A DNA stretch of 64,000 nucleotides from Prolixibacter denitrificans. Its GTDB lineage: Bacteria; Bacteroidota; Bacteroidia; Bacteroidales; Prolixibacteraceae. Shown here in pieces: positions 24,124-58,471 of the stretch. Where the stretch lies: the NCBI RefSeq assembly GCF_003014495.1, contig NZ_PYGC01000009.1:62001-126000 (forward strand). The letters are read 5' to 3'. A program made the position numbers and the translations under genes. Numbering within the stretch: position 1 is the stretch's first letter; every line of letters begins with the position of its first letter. The notes beneath the pieces are model-generated. The model ran no database searches, had not been told where the DNA came from, and saw only the letters and a list, made by a program, of their open reading frames with translations.

Positions 24124-24142
24124 CAACGCTTTTAACGAAAGC

Positions 24143-24217
24143 GGGAGCTTAGCTCAGTTGGTTCAGAGCATCTGCCTTACAAGCAGAGGGTCGCTGGTTC
24201 GAATCCAGCAGTTCCCA
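24143..24217 (+). tRNA. tRNA-Val (TAC), copy 1
   Basis: The acceptor stem GGGAGCT pairs with AGTTCCC. The D arm is GCTC..GAGC, the anticodon arm is TCTGC-CTTACAA-GCAGA with anticodon TAC, and the T arm is GCTGG-TTCGAAT-CCAGC. The discriminator is A, and a full CCA is not encoded. It is the first of three copies spaced exactly 105 bp apart. Confidence 0.97.
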
Positions 24218-24247
24218 CCGTTCATAATTAGGATTTTATTTTTTTTC

Positions 24248-24322
24248 GGGAGCTTAGCTCAGTTGGTTCAGAGCATCTGCCTTACAAGCAGAGGGTCGCT
24301 GGTTCGAATCCAGCAGTTCCCA
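24248..24322 (+). tRNA. tRNA-Val (TAC), copy 2
   Basis: It appears identical to the first copy over all 75 bases. The 30-bp spacers around it share the block CGTTCATAATTAGGATTTTA, showing duplication of a gene-plus-spacer unit. No full CCA is encoded. Confidence 0.97.
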
Positions 24323-24352
24323 CACGTTCATAATTAGGATTTTATTTCTTTC

Positions 24353-24427
24353 GGGAGCTTAGCTCAGTTGGTTCAGAGCATCTGCCTTACAAGCAGAGGG
24401 TCGCTGGTTCGAATCCAGCAGTTCCCA
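24353..24427 (+). tRNA. tRNA-Val (TAC), copy 3
   Basis: It appears identical to the other two copies. It is followed directly by a strong terminator, so the three tRNAs form one transcription unit. Confidence 0.97.
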
Positions 24428-24429
24428 CT

Positions 24430-27330: not shown

Positions 27331-27557
27331 TCAGGCTGTTGAAATTTTCAATCCGTTCACTCCTGACTGATTCTCGCTATTGAAATTTTCAATTTATCCT
27401 TTTCTAAACATTTCAGGCTGCTGAAATTTTAAATTCACCCTTTTATGAACATTTCTGGCCGTTGAAATTTTCAATAGCCCCATTTCTGACGAATTATTGT
27501 CATTGAAATTTTGCAGAAGCTCCGTCCCCCTGCTATTTTATCGCCGTTGAAAATAAA
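27331..27557. repeat. 41-bp tandem array with palindromic core
   Basis: Five copies of a near-palindromic core TTGAAATTTTCAA begin at 27339, 27380, 27421, 27462 and 27503, exactly 41 bp apart. A sixth, partial copy (TTGAAAATAAA) begins at 27547, 44 bp on. Copies 1, 2 and 4 are intact, copy 3 has two changes and copy 5 is altered at its end. Flanks share weaker similarity (CATTTCAGGCTG before copies 1 and 3, CATTTCTGGCC before copy 4). No open frame fits. It fills most of the 495-bp gap between the PhoH gene and mtaB. Confidence 0.85.
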
Positions 27558-51147: not shown

Positions 51148-52958
51148 TGAGTCAACCCGCCGAAAAGATTTACCAGGAGAGACAACAAAAGTTTGAACAG
51201 GAACTGACCGTAACCAACAAATGGTTGCGGTTGTTGTCGTTTCTTCGTCTGATTGTTTTTATGGGCGGTTTGATTCTGCTCTACCAGCTCCGGATGGCGT
51301 CGCCATTGCTCATCGTAGGGCTGGCCATCGTGTTGATCGCTACCTTTCTTTTCCTGATGAAACGATACTCCGAACTTTCGGAGGTCAGGCAAATGCAGGA
51401 GAATTACATCGAAGTCAACCACAACGAATTGAAAGCGCTTGGTTTCGATTTTTCGCCGTTTGGGCCGGGAAACGAGTACAAACAATCAGAGCATCCCTAT
51501 TCCTTCGATCTGGACCTCTTCGGTGAATTTTCCCTCTTCCGGATGTTGAACCGGACGACCACTTCGGTGGGAAGCCGGCGGCTGGCCAGCTGGCTGCAGA
51601 ACATGATGCTTTCGCCGGAAAAAATCAAAGCCCGGCAGGACGCGGTCAGGGAGCTGACAGAGAAACTTTCGTGGCGACAAACCTTTTCGGCCAGTGCCAT
51701 GCTCTATCACGAAGATGATGCGCACATCGAGACCATTAAAAACTGGAAGGATATTGAGGTAAAGTTCCCGGGCGAAACGTTTTTCCGGATAGCCGGCATC
51801 GTTGTTCCCTTGCTCACCCTGGTTGCCATTGGGCTGCTCATTGCCGGTGAGATTACCTTCGGCCAGTACATGCTTACTTTTTACCTGCAATGGATCCTGT
51901 TTGGAATTCGCAGTAAAGTGCTAGCGTTTTTCTTCGACAACTTTGGAAAGAACTCAGCGCTCTTAAATAAGTACCGGAAACTCTTCGATTTAATCGAGAA
52001 CGAAACATTCGCTGCCGCAGAAACCCAAGCCATCCGCCAGTTGCTTATTTCGCCGCGAAAGGCAAGCACTGAAATAAAAAGCCTGAATAAGACTATCAAG
52101 CTTTTCGAAGCACGGCTCAACATGATCACCGTATTTGTGTTTAACTCCATTTTCATGTGGGACATCAACTGCAGCCTGGCGTTGTTGAAATGGCACCGGC
52201 GAAATGCCACGTTGCTGCCACAGTGGCTCCAGGCAGCTGAGCAGTTCGATGCACTGAACAGCCTGGCGAACTTTGCGTACAACCGACCGTCAACGAATTT
52301 CCCTGTCCCGGAGAATGACGGCCATGCATTAAATGCAACATTGGTCGGTCACCCGTTGATTCCGGAAACCGAGCGAATCGACAATGATTTTCAGATTGAC
52401 GGAAACGGTGAGTTCGTCATCATTACCGGGGCCAACATGGCCGGGAAGAGCACCTTCCTGCGCACCGTGGGCGTGAACCTGGTGCTAGCGATGGCCGGAG
52501 CGCCGGTTTGCGCGAAAGAGTTCCGCTTTACGCCCATGCCGCTCTACAGCCACATGCGCACCGACGATGACCTGGGACGGCACGAATCGTACTTCTTTGC
52601 CGAGCTGAAAAAACTGAAAGTTATCCTGGAAGCCCTGAAAGAGAAAGGGAAAATCTTCATCATTCTGGATGAAATCCTGCGGGGCACCAACTCGGAAGAT
52701 AAACTCAGCGGCTCCATCCAATACCTGGAACAACTGATCCTGGAAGGCGGCATGGGGATTATTGCCACCCACGACTTGAAGCTGACCGAGCTGCACGAAA
52801 AGCACCCAAAAACGTTGCGCAACCAATGCTTCGAGGTGAACCTTTCTTCCGAAGGACTCACCTTCGACTACAAGCTATACGAGGGTGTGACCCGTACGAT
52901 GAACGCCACTTTCCTGATGCGGCAGATGGGGATTATTCCCGGCAACGGCCAGTCATAA
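51147..52958 (+). CDS. Membrane-embedded MutS-like ATPase
   Basis: This 603-residue protein has a C-terminal MutS ATPase domain: Walker A ITGANMAGKSTFLRT (near residue 430), signature region DDDLGRHESYFFAELKKL, and Walker B IFIILDEILRGTNSEDK. The N-terminus has two transmembrane helices (about 27-47 and 49-70), and another hydrophobic pair lies near 215-255. The mismatch-recognition domain I of MutS is absent. It cannot be a classical mismatch-repair MutS; the function is unknown. The last 13 codons of this gene recur as an exact 38-bp copy at 58877-58914. It is coupled to PAP2. Confidence 0.85.
   Translation: MSQPAEKIYQERQQKFEQELTVTNKWLRLLSFLRLIVFMGGLILLYQLRMASPLLIVGLAIVLIATFLFLMKRYSELSEVRQMQENYIEVNHNELKALGFDFSPFGPGNEYKQSEHPYSFDLDLFGEFSLFRMLNRTTTSVGSRRLASWLQNMMLSPEKIKARQDAVRELTEKLSWRQTFSASAMLYHEDDAHIETIKNWKDIEVKFPGETFFRIAGIVVPLLTLVAIGLLIAGEITFGQYMLTFYLQWILFGIRSKVLAFFFDNFGKNSALLNKYRKLFDLIENETFAAAETQAIRQLLISPRKASTEIKSLNKTIKLFEARLNMITVFVFNSIFMWDINCSLALLKWHRRNATLLPQWLQAAEQFDALNSLANFAYNRPSTNFPVPENDGHALNATLVGHPLIPETERIDNDFQIDGNGEFVIITGANMAGKSTFLRTVGVNLVLAMAGAPVCAKEFRFTPMPLYSHMRTDDDLGRHESYFFAELKKLKVILEALKEKGKIFIILDEILRGTNSEDKLSGSIQYLEQLILEGGMGIIATHDLKLTELHEKHPKTLRNQCFEVNLSSEGLTFDYKLYEGVTRTMNATFLMRQMGIIPGNGQS
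52905..52942 (+). repeat. 38-bp direct repeat, copy 1 (inside the MutS-like 3' end)
   Basis: These 38 bases, coding for the end of the MutS-like protein (ATFLMRQMGIIPG), recur exactly at 58877-58914 in the same orientation. The two copies flank 5.9 kb that carries the XRE, membrane, HEPN-like and BNR genes. Confidence 0.9.
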
Positions 52959-52969
52959 AAGCGAGACGA

Positions 52970-53329
52970 CTACGCCTCGCCCTTCTCTATTTTTTCCTTG
53001 ATTAGTTGCTCCACCTCGTCGAGTTGTTCGAGCGGGATGGAATTGAGCATCCGGGTGAGGTCGATGACTTTATCGGAGCGTTTTATTTTATTGAGCGGAT
53101 GCTCCGCATCGACCTGCGTGTTTTTGTCGGGCGTCCACTCATAGAAGTCGTTGGGCGTGCAGCGCAGGAGCACGCAGAGCCGTTCGATTTCGCGAAGGTT
53201 GAGCCGGGCCACCTTGTTCTTTTTAACCCGTGTGGCAAAATTATCGGAGAAGCCCGCATTTTTCAGGTAAGTGAAAGGCCGGGCAATGCCTCTTGCCTTA
53301 AAAATCCGTTCGAAGTTGTAGATTAGCAT
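52970..53329 (-). CDS. XRE-type helix-turn-helix regulator
   Basis: This 119-residue DNA-binding protein uses ATG 53329 (MLIYNFERIFKARG). The HTH spans about residues 12-60 (FTYLKNAGFSDNFATRVKKN, then LREIERLCVLLRCTPNDFYEW). The charged C-terminal half (DLTRMLNSIPLEQLDEVEQL) may dimerise. The family is common in Bacteroidota and its targets are unknown. The gene is convergent with the MutS-like gene. An inverted repeat (53348-53362) just upstream could be an autoregulatory operator. A 21-bp periodic array lies 107-270 bp upstream of the ATG. Confidence 0.88.
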   Translation of the reverse strand: MLIYNFERIFKARGIARPFTYLKNAGFSDNFATRVKKNKVARLNLREIERLCVLLRCTPNDFYEWTPDKNTQVDAEHPLNKIKRSDKVIDLTRMLNSIPLEQLDEVEQLIKEKIEKGEA

Positions 53330-53347
53330 AGGTTTGGGTTTGAATAA

Positions 53348-53362
53348 CCTACACAAGTTAGG
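53348..53362. promoter_or_regulatory. Candidate operator of the XRE gene
   Basis: CCTACACAAGTTAGG is an inverted repeat (CCTA...TAGG; also ACCTA...TTAGG) 19 bp before the XRE ATG. On the minus strand it overlaps a -7-like TAACTTGTG. An autorepressor site is the natural inference. Confidence 0.35.
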
Positions 53363-53435
53363 CGATTTACCGCTTATTAAAAAAATAAAACACTTCTTTC
53401 TGTTCTGCTATTCATTTTTATGACTTTACTTCTCG

Positions 53436-53597
53436 CGTATCTTTTTCAACCTACCGTGTATCTTACATTTTCCTTCGTTCTTCTATGATTTCCATACGTG
53501 CTTATTGTATTGCTACCCGTTCTTATTATTCCTCTGCTCGTTCTTGTTAGTTAACTTACTCTCGTTACTACAAAGTTTATCGTGTTTTCTTGATTGC
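53436..53597. repeat. 21-bp periodic semi-conserved array upstream of the XRE gene
   Basis: Units begin with CGT (most often CGTTCTT or CGTGCTTAT) at 53436, 53455, 53476, 53497, 53518 and 53539, with spacings 19, 21, 21, 21 and 21. Looser units follow at 53563 and 53581 (spacings 24 and 18). The first seven bases are conserved and the remaining 12-14 differ between units. It lies in a 465-bp gap with no convincing gene. A pyrimidine-rich stretch (53391-53435) precedes it and a G-rich stretch (53598-53665) follows it. Confidence 0.75.
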
Positions 53598-53793
53598 CGG
53601 GATTGGATGGTCGTTTTCTTGGCAGGGATGGTTGTTTGGGTATGCGGGAGGTGGAATAGGGGAAAAGTACCAAATGATATCGAGACTTAGCACCACACTT
53701 TAATTGCCCAGCAATAGGCAGAAAAGCAACTTGCGTTCATATTCATCGTATCAAAGCATAGCCCCGCGTTATACAAAATATTGGTAAGCGCAA

Positions 53794-54180
53794 TTATCTA
53801 ATAGTATCACTTACCATAGTACTGTCACTGTTTTCAGATCTAATATTTTGTTCAATTAATCTATTGTAGTTTTCAATCATAATCTCTTTTTTCGTCTTAT
53901 ACCCCGTCCTTGCTTTATAAATGCTGAATGCTATATAAAAGACTACAAACGTCAACACTATTGCTATGTAAATTTTACCTAAAGTCTTAGAAAACAATTC
54001 CACACCCTCAACCTTGTAATTAACTATCAAAATAATTAGGGAAACAAGCGATATAATTCCTATAAGAATTATTCCTCCATACAGTAGTGGGTTCGACGAA
54101 TTCAAATCCTCAAGTAATAAAAATCCCATAAGACAAATTGCAAACCCCAAAGAAGCTAATAGCGAAGCAAATTTTTTCAT
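53794..54180 (-). CDS. Small membrane protein of unknown function
   Basis: This 128-residue protein has three probable transmembrane helices: ASLLASLGFAICLMGFLL, YGGIILIGIISLVSLIILIV and IYIAIVLTFVVFYIAFSIY. A charged C-terminal tail of about 40 residues (TKKEIMIENYNRLIEQNIRS) follows. No family was recognised. It lies 76 bp downstream of the HEPN-like gene on the same strand, in a visibly AT-rich segment unlike its neighbours. The pair may be one transferred unit. Confidence 0.65.
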   Translation of the reverse strand: MKKFASLLASLGFAICLMGFLLLEDLNSSNPLLYGGIILIGIISLVSLIILIVNYKVEGVELFSKTLGKIYIAIVLTFVVFYIAFSIYKARTGYKTKKEIMIENYNRLIEQNIRSENSDSTMVSDTIR

Positions 54181-54256
54181 AACCTAGGTCTCTTCTTGTT
54201 GTTCTTCTCCATATTTTATCCCAATACTTATTATTCCAAACGGTTGTGTGTTGTTT

Positions 54257-54697
54257 CTACTTTTTTAGTTTATTATTTTCTTTTCTAATGATGTCTGCTA
54301 GTCCGTCAATATTTTCAGTTAACTGCCACGCTCTTTCGATATAAAGAAGAACATCTGTATCCATAAGATTATTTTTCTCTAAAATCGTTTCATCTAATAG
54401 ATCAACAAAAAGAGCATATATATTATGAGTTATATAATTTCTCTGCCTGGAAATATCTTTGAGTATCATTATCGTATTTTTACTCAGAATGTGATTGGTC
54501 TCAGCAAGATCAATTAATGAACCTAATGTCGCTCTATTGAATTTACCTTTTACATTATGGTTCTTTAAGAGGATAATTAATTCGGCTTCGAGCTTACCTG
54601 ATGCTAATGTAACTCTCCCCAATTCTGAGGTAAATTCTTCTGACTCGTTAAGTAATTTGTAAAACTCTAATCCTTTTTTGGGTTCTCCTAAGTACAT
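54257..54697 (-). CDS. HEPN-like helical protein (candidate RNase)
   Basis: This 146-residue all-helical protein has the segment DISRQRNYITHNIYALF. Its RNYITH matches the RX4-6H signature of HEPN ribonuclease domains, with the polar residue after Arg. The N-terminal helix ELGRVTLASGKLEAELIILL fits the first helix of such folds. The gene is AT-rich and is followed by a small membrane protein gene. HEPN proteins act in toxin-antitoxin, defence and RNA processing, but this subfamily is uncharacterised to my knowledge. Assignment rests on a short motif and fold-like composition only. Confidence 0.6.
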   Translation of the reverse strand: MYLGEPKKGLEFYKLLNESEEFTSELGRVTLASGKLEAELIILLKNHNVKGKFNRATLGSLIDLAETNHILSKNTIMILKDISRQRNYITHNIYALFVDLLDETILEKNNLMDTDVLLYIERAWQLTENIDGLADIIRKENNKLKK

Positions 54698-54953
54698 TCT
54701 TTATCAGGGATTTAAATCACACACAACTAGTGTGTATGTGCATTGTTCTTATTTTTCTTAATCGGTATACAACTTGTGCTTATACCTGCATATGGGGATG
54801 TATTGTGTACCTACTATGTTGCATCAAGAAGTAAGCAGTAATGGGTTTTAATTTCGAAGTTTCTTCCACGAAGAGCTTCACGCCAATGAAATTAGCGTTT
54901 TTTATCGTTAATCAAAAGTTGGGAAATCAGGTGCATTCTCGACAAGTTATTCA

Positions 54954-55022
54954 CCCCTAAATCCCCTAAAGGGGACTTGGAGCTGCCCCTTTAGGGGAGC
55001 TCCGAGACTTCGGAGGGAGGGG
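54954..55022. repeat. Palindromic intergenic element
   Basis: CCCCTAAAGGGG (54963-54974) and CCCCTTTAGGGG (54986-54997) form a 12-pair hairpin with an 11-base loop. Flanking GGAGCT/AGCTCC and a trailing GGAGGGAGGGG surround it. Its reverse complement resembles the AGTCCCCC...GGGGGATTTAGGGGG element at 58821-58848, so the two are members of one family in opposite orientation. Confidence 0.7.
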
Positions 55023-55105
55023 TAAAAACGGAACGCCAATTACAATTTGTCAATTTTAAATTTTGCCCTGGTACTTTTCGGACACCTTCCAATTAAATCC
55101 AATTT

Positions 55106-55142
55106 CATCTCCTGCATCCAAGCTGTTCGGATGCAGGAGATG
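55106..55142. repeat. Perfect 14-bp inverted repeat
   Basis: CATCTCCTGCATCC (55106-55119) and GGATGCAGGAGATG (55129-55142) are exact inverted copies with a nine-base loop. It lies about 50 bp past the BNR gene stop on the minus strand but has no T-tract, so it is not a typical terminator. Confidence 0.85.
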
Positions 55143-55192
55143 GGAATCATTCCAGAGACGGTAATTGAATTTATCTATTTCATTGATAGTCT

Positions 55193-58100
55193 TTACTTGC
55201 TACCTTCGTTCCATTCAGGGAATCTCCCGGGCGTGTATGGGGCACCATACTTTTCCAGTTTTGATTCAACCGATTTTATTTCACTATCGATCGATTTTAG
55301 TTTCGTCAATAAGTCTCCAAATTTACTGGCGGCAGCATCGTATGACTGCTTAAATGTGGTCGTTGGAGCTGCCGTTGTCGTCCACAGTGCGCCGGTAATT
55401 AAATCGACTCTTTCTTTCACGGAAGTGGGTGAAGCACCTTCGTAATCGGCTTTCAATCGGTCTCCGTTCAGTTCTTCGTTCAACTCATCGAGCTCCTGTT
55501 TAATGGATAAAATGGAGTTGTAAATGCTGTCAGGAACATTCGCTCCATCAATCACGGCCTTTTCGAGATAGGCAATTTTATTAACGAGTGATTTTCGGTA
55601 GGCATCTGCCCCGGAAATTGCCCGGGTCAATGAAGCCACTTTTTTATTGAATTGATCAAGAGCAAGTCTTTCATCAGCAGCAAGCGTGGTAGTATTTAGC
55701 GGTTCACAGACAAAATCCTGCGGTGGTACCAATTGAGTAAATTTTCCATCGACAAATTTTGAAAGCGAGACTTTGTATTTTCCGGGGACAACCATATAGC
55801 CTACATCAGGCGAATACCATGGTACAGAAGTATCAACCGGCTTTATTGAAACAGGTGTAAATGGATTATACCTGAAATTCCAGGTAATCCGGTTCACTCC
55901 CTTTTTGGGTGACGTCTTAATTTTCCGGATGACGTTTCCATTTTCATCGGTGATGGTAAAAAGCAAATAGGCTGTTGGTTCTTCCTTTTCTTCATGCAAC
56001 CTGTCGTAGGTGGGAAATTTCACCTCTTCGTTTTTCTTCTGCTTGGCTTTTTCTTCGTCTCTTCGTTGCTCTTTCAGCGATTTGATATCATCTTTCAGAT
56101 AATAGGTAAACACTGCTCCAACAGGCGGATTGGGTGCGCTATAAAAGCTTGCTCCCTGAAACCCTACGCCTTTGAATCCAAGCGGATTTGCCTGAACAAA
56201 CATTTTTGCATCCTTAATCGGGAAAATGTAAGCTTTCTTTTTCAGTGTTTCAGGACTTAACTTTCTCAACGGGGTATAATTATCAAGAATGTAAATTCCG
56301 CGACCAAATGTTGATACCACCAGATCGTGTTCTCTTCGCTGTAAAACAAGGCTCTTGACACACTCGGTAGGAATTCCGTTTTTTAACTGAACCCATTCAT
56401 GTCCGCCGTCATTTGTAAAGAAGACGCCAAATTGCGTTCCAACAAAAAGAAGACTTTTGTCCTTATCATCTTCTGCAATGGTGTAAGTGCTTCCCTTTTC
56501 CGGTAGATTTCCGTTGAACAGGAACCACGATTTTCCGCCATCCGTTGTTTTGAAAAGGTAAGGTTTGAAATCACCATCAAGAAAATTTTCGCAGGCAGCG
56601 TAAGCCACGTTTTTGTCGAAGTGTGACCCGATTATTTGAGAGATTCTTGCATATTTTGGCAATCCGGGTGTTGAAGATTTATTCCAGTTTTTCCCTCCAT
56701 CGGTTGTATAATAAATCAATCCGTCACCGGAACCCGTGAATAGCAGATTCTCATCGATTGGTGACTCGGCAATTGCACTTATTTGTCCCATCGAACCCTT
56801 TCTGACCAGTTCGTCAACGCTCCAGCTCCGATCCATCAGGTTTTGCATTTCATTCGGCACACCGCGGGTCAAATCAGGACTGATTACATCCCAGGTGCTT
56901 CCCATATCGTTGGTCCGGAATAATTTGTTGGCCCCGAAATACAATCTTTTATGATCGAATTTGGAAATTAATAAGGCAGCATCCCAGTCGAACCGATAGG
57001 CCGTATCAGCAAAGTCATACGGTTTAATGAATAATTGTTCACCCGTTTTTTTATCATACCGAACCAGACCGCCATTTTGCGACTCTGCGTAAACGATGTT
57101 CGGATCTTTCCAGTCCACCTGCGATTGAAAACCATCACCGCTGGTTGTAAAAAACCAATCGCGGTTGGTAATGCCACTGGAATTGATAGTTCTGGAAGGA
57201 CCTCCAAAGCTGTTGTTGTCCTGCGAGCCAGCGTAGACATTATAAAATGGCTTTGCGTTATCGGTTGTTACTTTATAGATTTCAGCGATTGGGATATTCG
57301 ATTTGAAGCCCCAGTTTTTCCCCTCATCATACGTTTCGTAAACACCACCGTCACACCCGTCAATCAGGTGTTTGTTGTTCGATGGATCAATCCACAACAC
57401 ATGATTATCGACGTGCTTTTTAGCTTCGCCTAAATTATTCCATGTTTTGCCTCCATCGATGCTTACCTTCATAAATACATCCATGCTATAGACCCGATCG
57501 ACATTTTTGGTATCGCAGTAAATTTTCTGGAAATAGAACGGATAAGAAGAAACATAACTACTCCGTTTTTCCCAGCTAATTCCGCGGTCTGTACTTCGGT
57601 ATACACCTCCGCCTTTTTTGGCCTCAACAATGGCAAACAAGACATCCGGATTTACCGGAGAAATAGCGATTCCGATTCTTCCGACATCCCCCGTTGGAAG
57701 CCCCTCGGTCATTTTCGTCCAGGTTTTTCCGCTGTCGGTACTTCGGTATATTCCGCTTTCCGGTCCGCCGGAGACCCCGGTAAATAGTTTTCTCATTCTC
57801 TGGTGTGCCACGGCGTACAGAATATTGGTATGTCTGGGGTCCATGTGAATCTCATAGCAACCGGTATATTTACTGATAAACAAAACCTTTTTCCAGGTTT
57901 TTCCGCCGTCCGTAGTTTTGAATATTCCCCGCTCATCATTTGCTTTTCTCAACGATCCGTAAGCAGCGACATAGACGGTATTCGGATCTTTCGGGTCAAC
58001 AACAATTCCTCCGATGTGATAGGAATTTTTAAGCCCCATGTTTTTCCAGCTTTGTCCGCCATCTTCACTTTTATAAACTCCATCGCCGTAAATAACATTA

Positions 58101-58471
58101 TTCTGATTGTTATTTTCGCCTGTTCCAACCCATATCGTGTTAGGATTCGTCGGATCAATGGTTACAGCACCTATTGCGTACGATTTTTGATGATCAAATA
58201 CCGGGGTGAAAGTGATTCCGTTATTGGTTGTTTTCCACAATGATCCATGACCGGCCCCCACAAAATATTCGCTATGATTGAAAGGATTTACGGCGAGGGC
58301 TACCACACGGCCTCCTGTTATGGCCGGTCCGATACTTCTGAAGGATAGTCCGCTTAACGAAAGATTTTTAAGCGAGTCCTGGTTTGATTCTGTCTTTATA
58401 TTTTTAGCCGGGAGATTTCCGGAAATAAGCAAAATGGATGCAATAAGAAGGGAAATTTTAATTCTTTTCAT
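55193..58471 (-). CDS. Large secreted BNR/sortilin-type beta-propeller protein
   Basis: This 1092-residue exported protein has the signal peptide SLLIASILLISGNLPAKN. Residues about 40-740 carry many BNR/Asp-box repeats (ESGIYRSTDSGKTWTKM, FKTTDGGKTWKKV, YYTTDGGKNWNKSS), as in VPS10/sortilin-like propellers. After residue 780 comes a beta-rich region (NRITWNFRYNPF), then a coiled helical region (YLEKAVIDGANVPDSIYNSI). Similar proteins are often labelled glycosyl hydrolase, but no catalytic residues can be assigned. No type IX C-terminal domain is seen. Its flanks hold duplicated repeat elements, suggesting the gene was inserted. Confidence 0.88.
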   Translation of the reverse strand: MKRIKISLLIASILLISGNLPAKNIKTESNQDSLKNLSLSGLSFRSIGPAITGGRVVALAVNPFNHSEYFVGAGHGSLWKTTNNGITFTPVFDHQKSYAIGAVTIDPTNPNTIWVGTGENNNQNNVIYGDGVYKSEDGGQSWKNMGLKNSYHIGGIVVDPKDPNTVYVAAYGSLRKANDERGIFKTTDGGKTWKKVLFISKYTGCYEIHMDPRHTNILYAVAHQRMRKLFTGVSGGPESGIYRSTDSGKTWTKMTEGLPTGDVGRIGIAISPVNPDVLFAIVEAKKGGGVYRSTDRGISWEKRSSYVSSYPFYFQKIYCDTKNVDRVYSMDVFMKVSIDGGKTWNNLGEAKKHVDNHVLWIDPSNNKHLIDGCDGGVYETYDEGKNWGFKSNIPIAEIYKVTTDNAKPFYNVYAGSQDNNSFGGPSRTINSSGITNRDWFFTTSGDGFQSQVDWKDPNIVYAESQNGGLVRYDKKTGEQLFIKPYDFADTAYRFDWDAALLISKFDHKRLYFGANKLFRTNDMGSTWDVISPDLTRGVPNEMQNLMDRSWSVDELVRKGSMGQISAIAESPIDENLLFTGSGDGLIYYTTDGGKNWNKSSTPGLPKYARISQIIGSHFDKNVAYAACENFLDGDFKPYLFKTTDGGKSWFLFNGNLPEKGSTYTIAEDDKDKSLLFVGTQFGVFFTNDGGHEWVQLKNGIPTECVKSLVLQRREHDLVVSTFGRGIYILDNYTPLRKLSPETLKKKAYIFPIKDAKMFVQANPLGFKGVGFQGASFYSAPNPPVGAVFTYYLKDDIKSLKEQRRDEEKAKQKKNEEVKFPTYDRLHEEKEEPTAYLLFTITDENGNVIRKIKTSPKKGVNRITWNFRYNPFTPVSIKPVDTSVPWYSPDVGYMVVPGKYKVSLSKFVDGKFTQLVPPQDFVCEPLNTTTLAADERLALDQFNKKVASLTRAISGADAYRKSLVNKIAYLEKAVIDGANVPDSIYNSILSIKQELDELNEELNGDRLKADYEGASPTSVKERVDLITGALWTTTAAPTTTFKQSYDAAASKFGDLLTKLKSIDSEIKSVESKLEKYGAPYTPGRFPEWNEGSK

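Follow-up and report, generated by a model that had tools for sequence, protein, structure and literature searches.

In many Bacteroidota, one family of small DNA-binding regulator genes carries its own array of 21-base units just in front of it, and gene plus array can be present, absent or relocated as one small cassette of about 0.8-1 kb. The family was recognized from a 64,000-nucleotide stretch of Prolixibacter denitrificans (NZ_PYGC01000009.1, positions 62,001 to 126,000; hereafter the window), part of a genome of 4.73 Mb in 36 contigs. A first-pass annotation had noticed here a 21-bp periodic, semi-variable array upstream of an XRE gene, the link between both being only inferred. This association holds up and looks undescribed, since no description was found in searches of open-access papers, which cover neither most subscription papers nor bioRxiv preprints. 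We propose, with a probability of roughly 0.57, that the array is a many-site operator through which the XRE controls its own promoter. Binding, regulation and the mode of movement are inferred.

The periodicity itself is real. CGT occurs at 53436, 53455, 53476, 53497, 53518, 53539, 53563 and 53581, as annotated. In the stretch 53433-53602, identity at lags 21, 42 and 63 is 0.51, 0.45 and 0.42, against about 0.3 at most other lags (the highest other values are 0.40 at lag 39 and 0.41 at lag 46). Across the whole intergenic stretch, the maximum-scoring lag-21 segment reaches 16.8 and spans 53428-53637 on the minus strand, corresponding to about 10 units. None of 1000 dinucleotide-preserving shuffles reaches that score at lag 21 (best 7.3) or at any lag from 10 to 65, and the five-step CGT chain is equally matched by 0 of 1000 (best 3). 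The array is thus longer than first annotated and stays in register: the supposedly loose units at 53436 and 53563 belong to in-register 21-mers whose CGT is shifted by 2-3 bases, whereas 53581 is exactly in register. Read on the XRE strand, the steadiest columns are ACG at unit positions 3-5, G at position 10 and an A-rich end. Tandem Repeats Finder does not report the array, presumably because the units are too unlike each other, but reports a 105-bp tandem repeat of 2.7 copies at 24142-24428 of the window (tRNA-like by eye) and a 41-bp tandem repeat of 2.3 copies at 27381-27475.

The gene next to the array (52970-53329, minus strand, ATG at 53329, 107 bp from 53436 as annotated) encodes an XRE-family regulator of 119 aa with an HTH_26 domain (PF13443, E=5.8e-9, 36.5 bits against a cut-off of 22, scanned as the 128-aa ORF) and the near-invariant CTPND motif at residues 57-61. 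An AlphaFold model based on three sequences predicts a helix-turn-helix with a mean pLDDT of 73.6 and a helix at residues 29-36. Columns 28-46 are mostly variable, but the linker and C-terminal part vary as much. The leader between array and ATG (53330-53427, minus strand) presumably holds the core promoter. The three other genomes of the genus all keep the array, one of them (G001; genomes and loci are designated G and L, respectively) with a gap of exactly 21 nt. Mean pairwise identity among the four species is 0.70 in the array, 0.85 in the leader, 0.86 in the start of the gene and 0.44 upstream of the array.

All hits of four searches at their thresholds (E<=1e-10 in one search, E<=1e-14 in two others) gave 61 family members, the window included and P. 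bellariivorans counted once. The family is patchy, being present in 5 of 61 genomes (the own genome plus 60 relatives), 20 of 393 genomes of the order and 7 of 395 drawn from the phylum, each count including the own genome. These are lower bounds, as one query sequence was used and only 11 candidates were scored in genomes G229 and G314. Two members (L082, L098) had too little upstream sequence. Of the other 59, the best lag between 10 and 65 was 21 (36 members), 42 (13), 63 (4), 41 (4) or 20 (2); 57 of 59 are thus array-type, including all 18 added paralogues, although the 59 are not independent, comprising orthologues and paralogues. The 95% control score is exceeded by 51 of 59 and the 99% score by 39. 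The eight regions below the 95% score are L026, L068, L085, L088, L090, L104, L108 and L112, and two of them (L085, L088) have no 21-type best lag at all. Among 333 control regions upstream of mechanical ORFs of at least 150 aa in the same loci, 7.5% had such a lag, about what chance gives for 4 of 56 lags, and 4 of 333 exceeded the 95% score with such a lag. One of these did so strongly (score 62, lag 41): at approximately 696-1105 of L102, a 41-bp periodic array with ATTTGTC...GACAAAT inverted repeats precedes an ORF that looks spurious. In the 500 bp downstream of the gene, lag 21 was the best lag in only three loci (L065, L070, L100), with identity of 0.40-0.45.

The array is also nearly restricted to this XRE subfamily. 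In a search of eight genomes for HTH_26 (79 places, 30 loci retrieved, 26 analyzed, the other four being family members), 8 of 9 family members but only 1 of 17 other HTH_26 genes have array-type repeats above the control score; L191, with STPND, is counted as family because it is the gene of L079. A profile search of 395 genomes yielded one further clear, distant member, L223, which has an array, whereas nine weak hits have none. Eight of the latter are short regulators with CQPGD, and the ninth, L215, has CTPND but only a partial match. Notably, a different XRE gene of 86 aa in genome G075 (L206, contig C99), not of the CTPND subfamily, also has a 42-bp periodic array about 270-520 bp upstream of its HTH match.

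Unit sequences differ between lineages, yet the spacing does not. The conserved head of the first-pass annotation is not shared across homologues, each lineage having its own unit. The remark that this is no ordinary conserved tandem repeat holds for the window copy, although some relatives have near-perfect repeats (lag-21 identity 0.90-0.98 in L027, L069, L079 and L081). Array length is 11 units at the median (range 2-22), and arrays end at a median of -83 from the ATG. A -7-like box TANNTT[TAG][GA], a loose pattern chosen after reading the sequences, starts at -31..-60 in 30 of 58 loci, against 5-11 in the other 30-nt bins; TANNTTNG gives 18 against 0-5, and the strict TANNTTTG only 5 against 0-4. 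The window does not match the loose pattern and has, as read by eye, only TAACTTG near -31. In some loci, the array runs to within 10-20 bp of the ATG, over the promoter region rather than upstream of it. Across 40 arrays, excess identity is 0.29, 0.27 and 0.23 at lags 21, 42 and 63, and none is seen at 10-11 bp, which speaks against A-tract bending. The exact spacing without sub-period fits the cooperative binding on one helical face put forward in the first-pass annotation, which remains an inference. Units are palindromic at p<0.05 in only 8 of 53 arrays, providing weak support for dimer sites.

A coding array was rejected: 21 of 50 arrays have a fully open frame, more than composition shuffles (5.1), but periodicity alone favors this because a 21-bp unit repeats the same seven codons, and the open frames fall in different frames and strands. 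A separate dispersed intergenic element of about three 21-bp units starting with CGTTCA, often preceded by TTTTC, occurs in the own genome (G000; e.g., L009:6247, L010:6162, L012:2825, L014:6739, L015:446). CGTTCA-N15-CGTTCA is found at 19 places in this genome and at 19, 16 and 6 in three congeners (reversed pattern 0-1), but at 0-4 in six genomes of other genera, like their controls of 0-3. It looks like a distinct repeat of the genus, perhaps a MITE-like or regulator-site family.

Mean unit similarity is 0.24-0.28 in the classes below 60% XRE identity and 0.55-0.65 above. The same XRE type at different slots gives 0.63 (L105/L113) and 0.39 (L109/L114), whereas a different type at the same slot gives 0.29 (L104/L114). 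In G075, all 11 places within 3 mismatches of the L079 unit lie in its array. Yet L066 and L067, in one genome, have 92% identical XREs with identical helix residues and 85% identity in leader and gene, while their arrays do not match (0.35); L099/L111 (0.27) and L101/L111 (0.35) also break the rule. Motif similarity tracks helix identity (Mantel r 0.37), but given the rest of the protein the partial r is only 0.075 (p 0.02), while the rest given the helix does better (0.29); in pairs of 50-75% identity the rest again correlates better (0.62 versus 0.40). Shared descent is thus not excluded.

Array plus XRE behaves as a cassette. No gene family recurs beside it. Pfam (35 upstream and 36 downstream genes) and PADLOC (the 35 upstream genes) show neighbors of assorted functions, DDE_Tnp_1 and Y1_Tnp each matching 1 of 35 upstream neighbors. 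In G229, the L105 module lies between a 777-aa FtsX/MacB-type permease gene and a sigma-54-type response-regulator gene, 830 bp apart; in G128 the same two genes (64% and 70% identical) stand 55 bp apart without array or XRE. At the L109 slot of G229, about 1000 bp separate flanks that are 57 bp apart in G314, and about 1040 bp separate flanks that are 99 bp apart in G128; by eye, the empty sites hold a terminator-like hairpin. Two empty relatives against one occupied genome suggest a gain in G229, by parsimony only. The L103 slot is shorter in both relatives (411 against 728 bp; 806 against 1556 bp) but not cleanly empty. The slot of L113 holds a different XRE in G128, and in G229 about 4 kb of other DNA without an XRE match. 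In addition, close XREs sit at unrelated loci: L105/L113 (88% identical) and L109/L114 (77%) have no alignable flanks, and L068 and L070, in different families, are 85% identical from -333 to +340, i.e., array plus gene, with only a 32-bp match beyond, although only about 0.5 kb of downstream sequence exists for L070. Other pairs are syntenic on both sides (such as L106/L115, L104/L114 and L107/L112) or only downstream (L073/L075), so several occupied slots are stable. In Prolixibacter, the downstream side is fully alignable between window, L095 and L096, while only 13-16% of 8.5 kb is alignable upstream, the next shared gene (293 aa) lying 2.3, 3.4 and 6.5 kb upstream. The genes just upstream of the array in the window (53640-58471; two small ORFs without a Pfam family above cut-off and a 1092-aa ORF) indeed differ from those in the congeners (a 161-aa ORF and a 320-aa ORF without Pfam family, and a DNA methylase), indicating a variable slot.

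Taken together, we favor a model in which the units are tandem operator sites for the adjacent XRE. Each unit spans two helical turns, so XRE molecules, probably as dimers, would load cooperatively on one face of the DNA next to the core promoter and set the level of XRE and of any co-directional gene read through from it. That the XRE binds the array is likely but unproven, and that array and recognition surface co-evolve is equally inferred. Among the Foldseek hits, none with E<=0.001, are CylR2 and restriction-modification controller (C) proteins, which share the small XRE fold. Compared with autoregulated Cro/C1-type repressors and C proteins, which presumably also act on tandem operators, the differing features here are a median of 11 units at an exact 21-bp (or 41/42) period, a unit private to each lineage, cassette-like movement and no recurring R-M or phage genes; a DNA methylase upstream in L096, a MutH-type gene upstream in L027 and NotI downstream of one of 36 loci do not make a rule. 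SaPI2 Stl2 (PMC11846896) is the best sequence hit (E 0.18) and the best fold hit (E 0.088), both non-significant; only the DNA-binding fold is shared, and its phage-satellite setting and recombinase targets have no counterpart here. CRISPR arrays likewise combine a repeated and a variable part, but the units here are 21 bp, the variable parts are largely alike between species of the genus, and no neighboring gene recurs, although cas genes as such were not searched.

Other functions are less likely. The array may titrate the XRE, or the XRE may repress or block incoming elements carrying the same sites, control of its own promoter being secondary. Such an orphan immunity or sink would account for the many sites for one small gene and for the at least 11 paralogues matched in each of two genomes, with differing arrays, and Stl2 is among the closest fold hits, none of them significant. 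However, the window XRE has no match at E<=1e-5 in 50,697 phage or 72,556 plasmid records, 22 viral-contig loci are short HTH-level matches, and no defense family recurs among the 35 upstream neighbors. It is also improbable that the array is a recombination or insertion site for moving the cassette. Occupied and empty sites, the same XRE type at different slots in sister genomes and the loss of alignability at the outer edge of the array in Prolixibacter are in line with this, yet no recombinase family recurs, the array is on one side only, no array remnant is evident at the empty sites and the -7-like boxes cluster between array and ATG.

A partition- or anchor-like site, reminiscent of ParR/parC loci or plasmid iterons in its tandem, helically phased sites next to the gene of the presumed binding protein, finds little support, given the at least 11 copies spread over the G229 chromosome, the assorted chromosomal neighbors, the lack of a plasmid match and the absence of any recurring neighbor, although no NTPase model was searched as such. 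The repeat-plus-variable anatomy and the arrays running close to the ATG could suggest an array acting as RNA, but there is no Rfam match at E<=1 in 52900-54300 of the window, and the -7-like boxes lie at -31..-60 while arrays end at a median of -83, making this a remote possibility. Neutral slippage could explain how fast arrays change, as seen in G001, the near-perfect arrays and L066/L067, but is largely refuted by the recurrence of one period in front of one gene family across the phylum, with unrelated unit sequences, and its rarity in front of other genes. Conversely, a bolder and rather unlikely reading, which is not excluded, is a phylum-wide class of minimal mobile elements, made of one DNA-binding protein and its private 21-bp code array without a recombinase of its own, that insert into intergenic regions and impose their own switch on the neighboring operon, many orthogonal codes coexisting in one chromosome.

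In summary, array and XRE are one unit, widespread but patchy, self-contained and at least sometimes movable. If our model is right, this is a natural library of matched regulator-array pairs, with at least 11 paralogues in one chromosome, each with its own array, and members spread over a phylum. It would pose the clear question of how a cassette with no recombinase of its own moves between slots, show how many-site autoregulation works and let a code between protein residues and bases be read from sequence.
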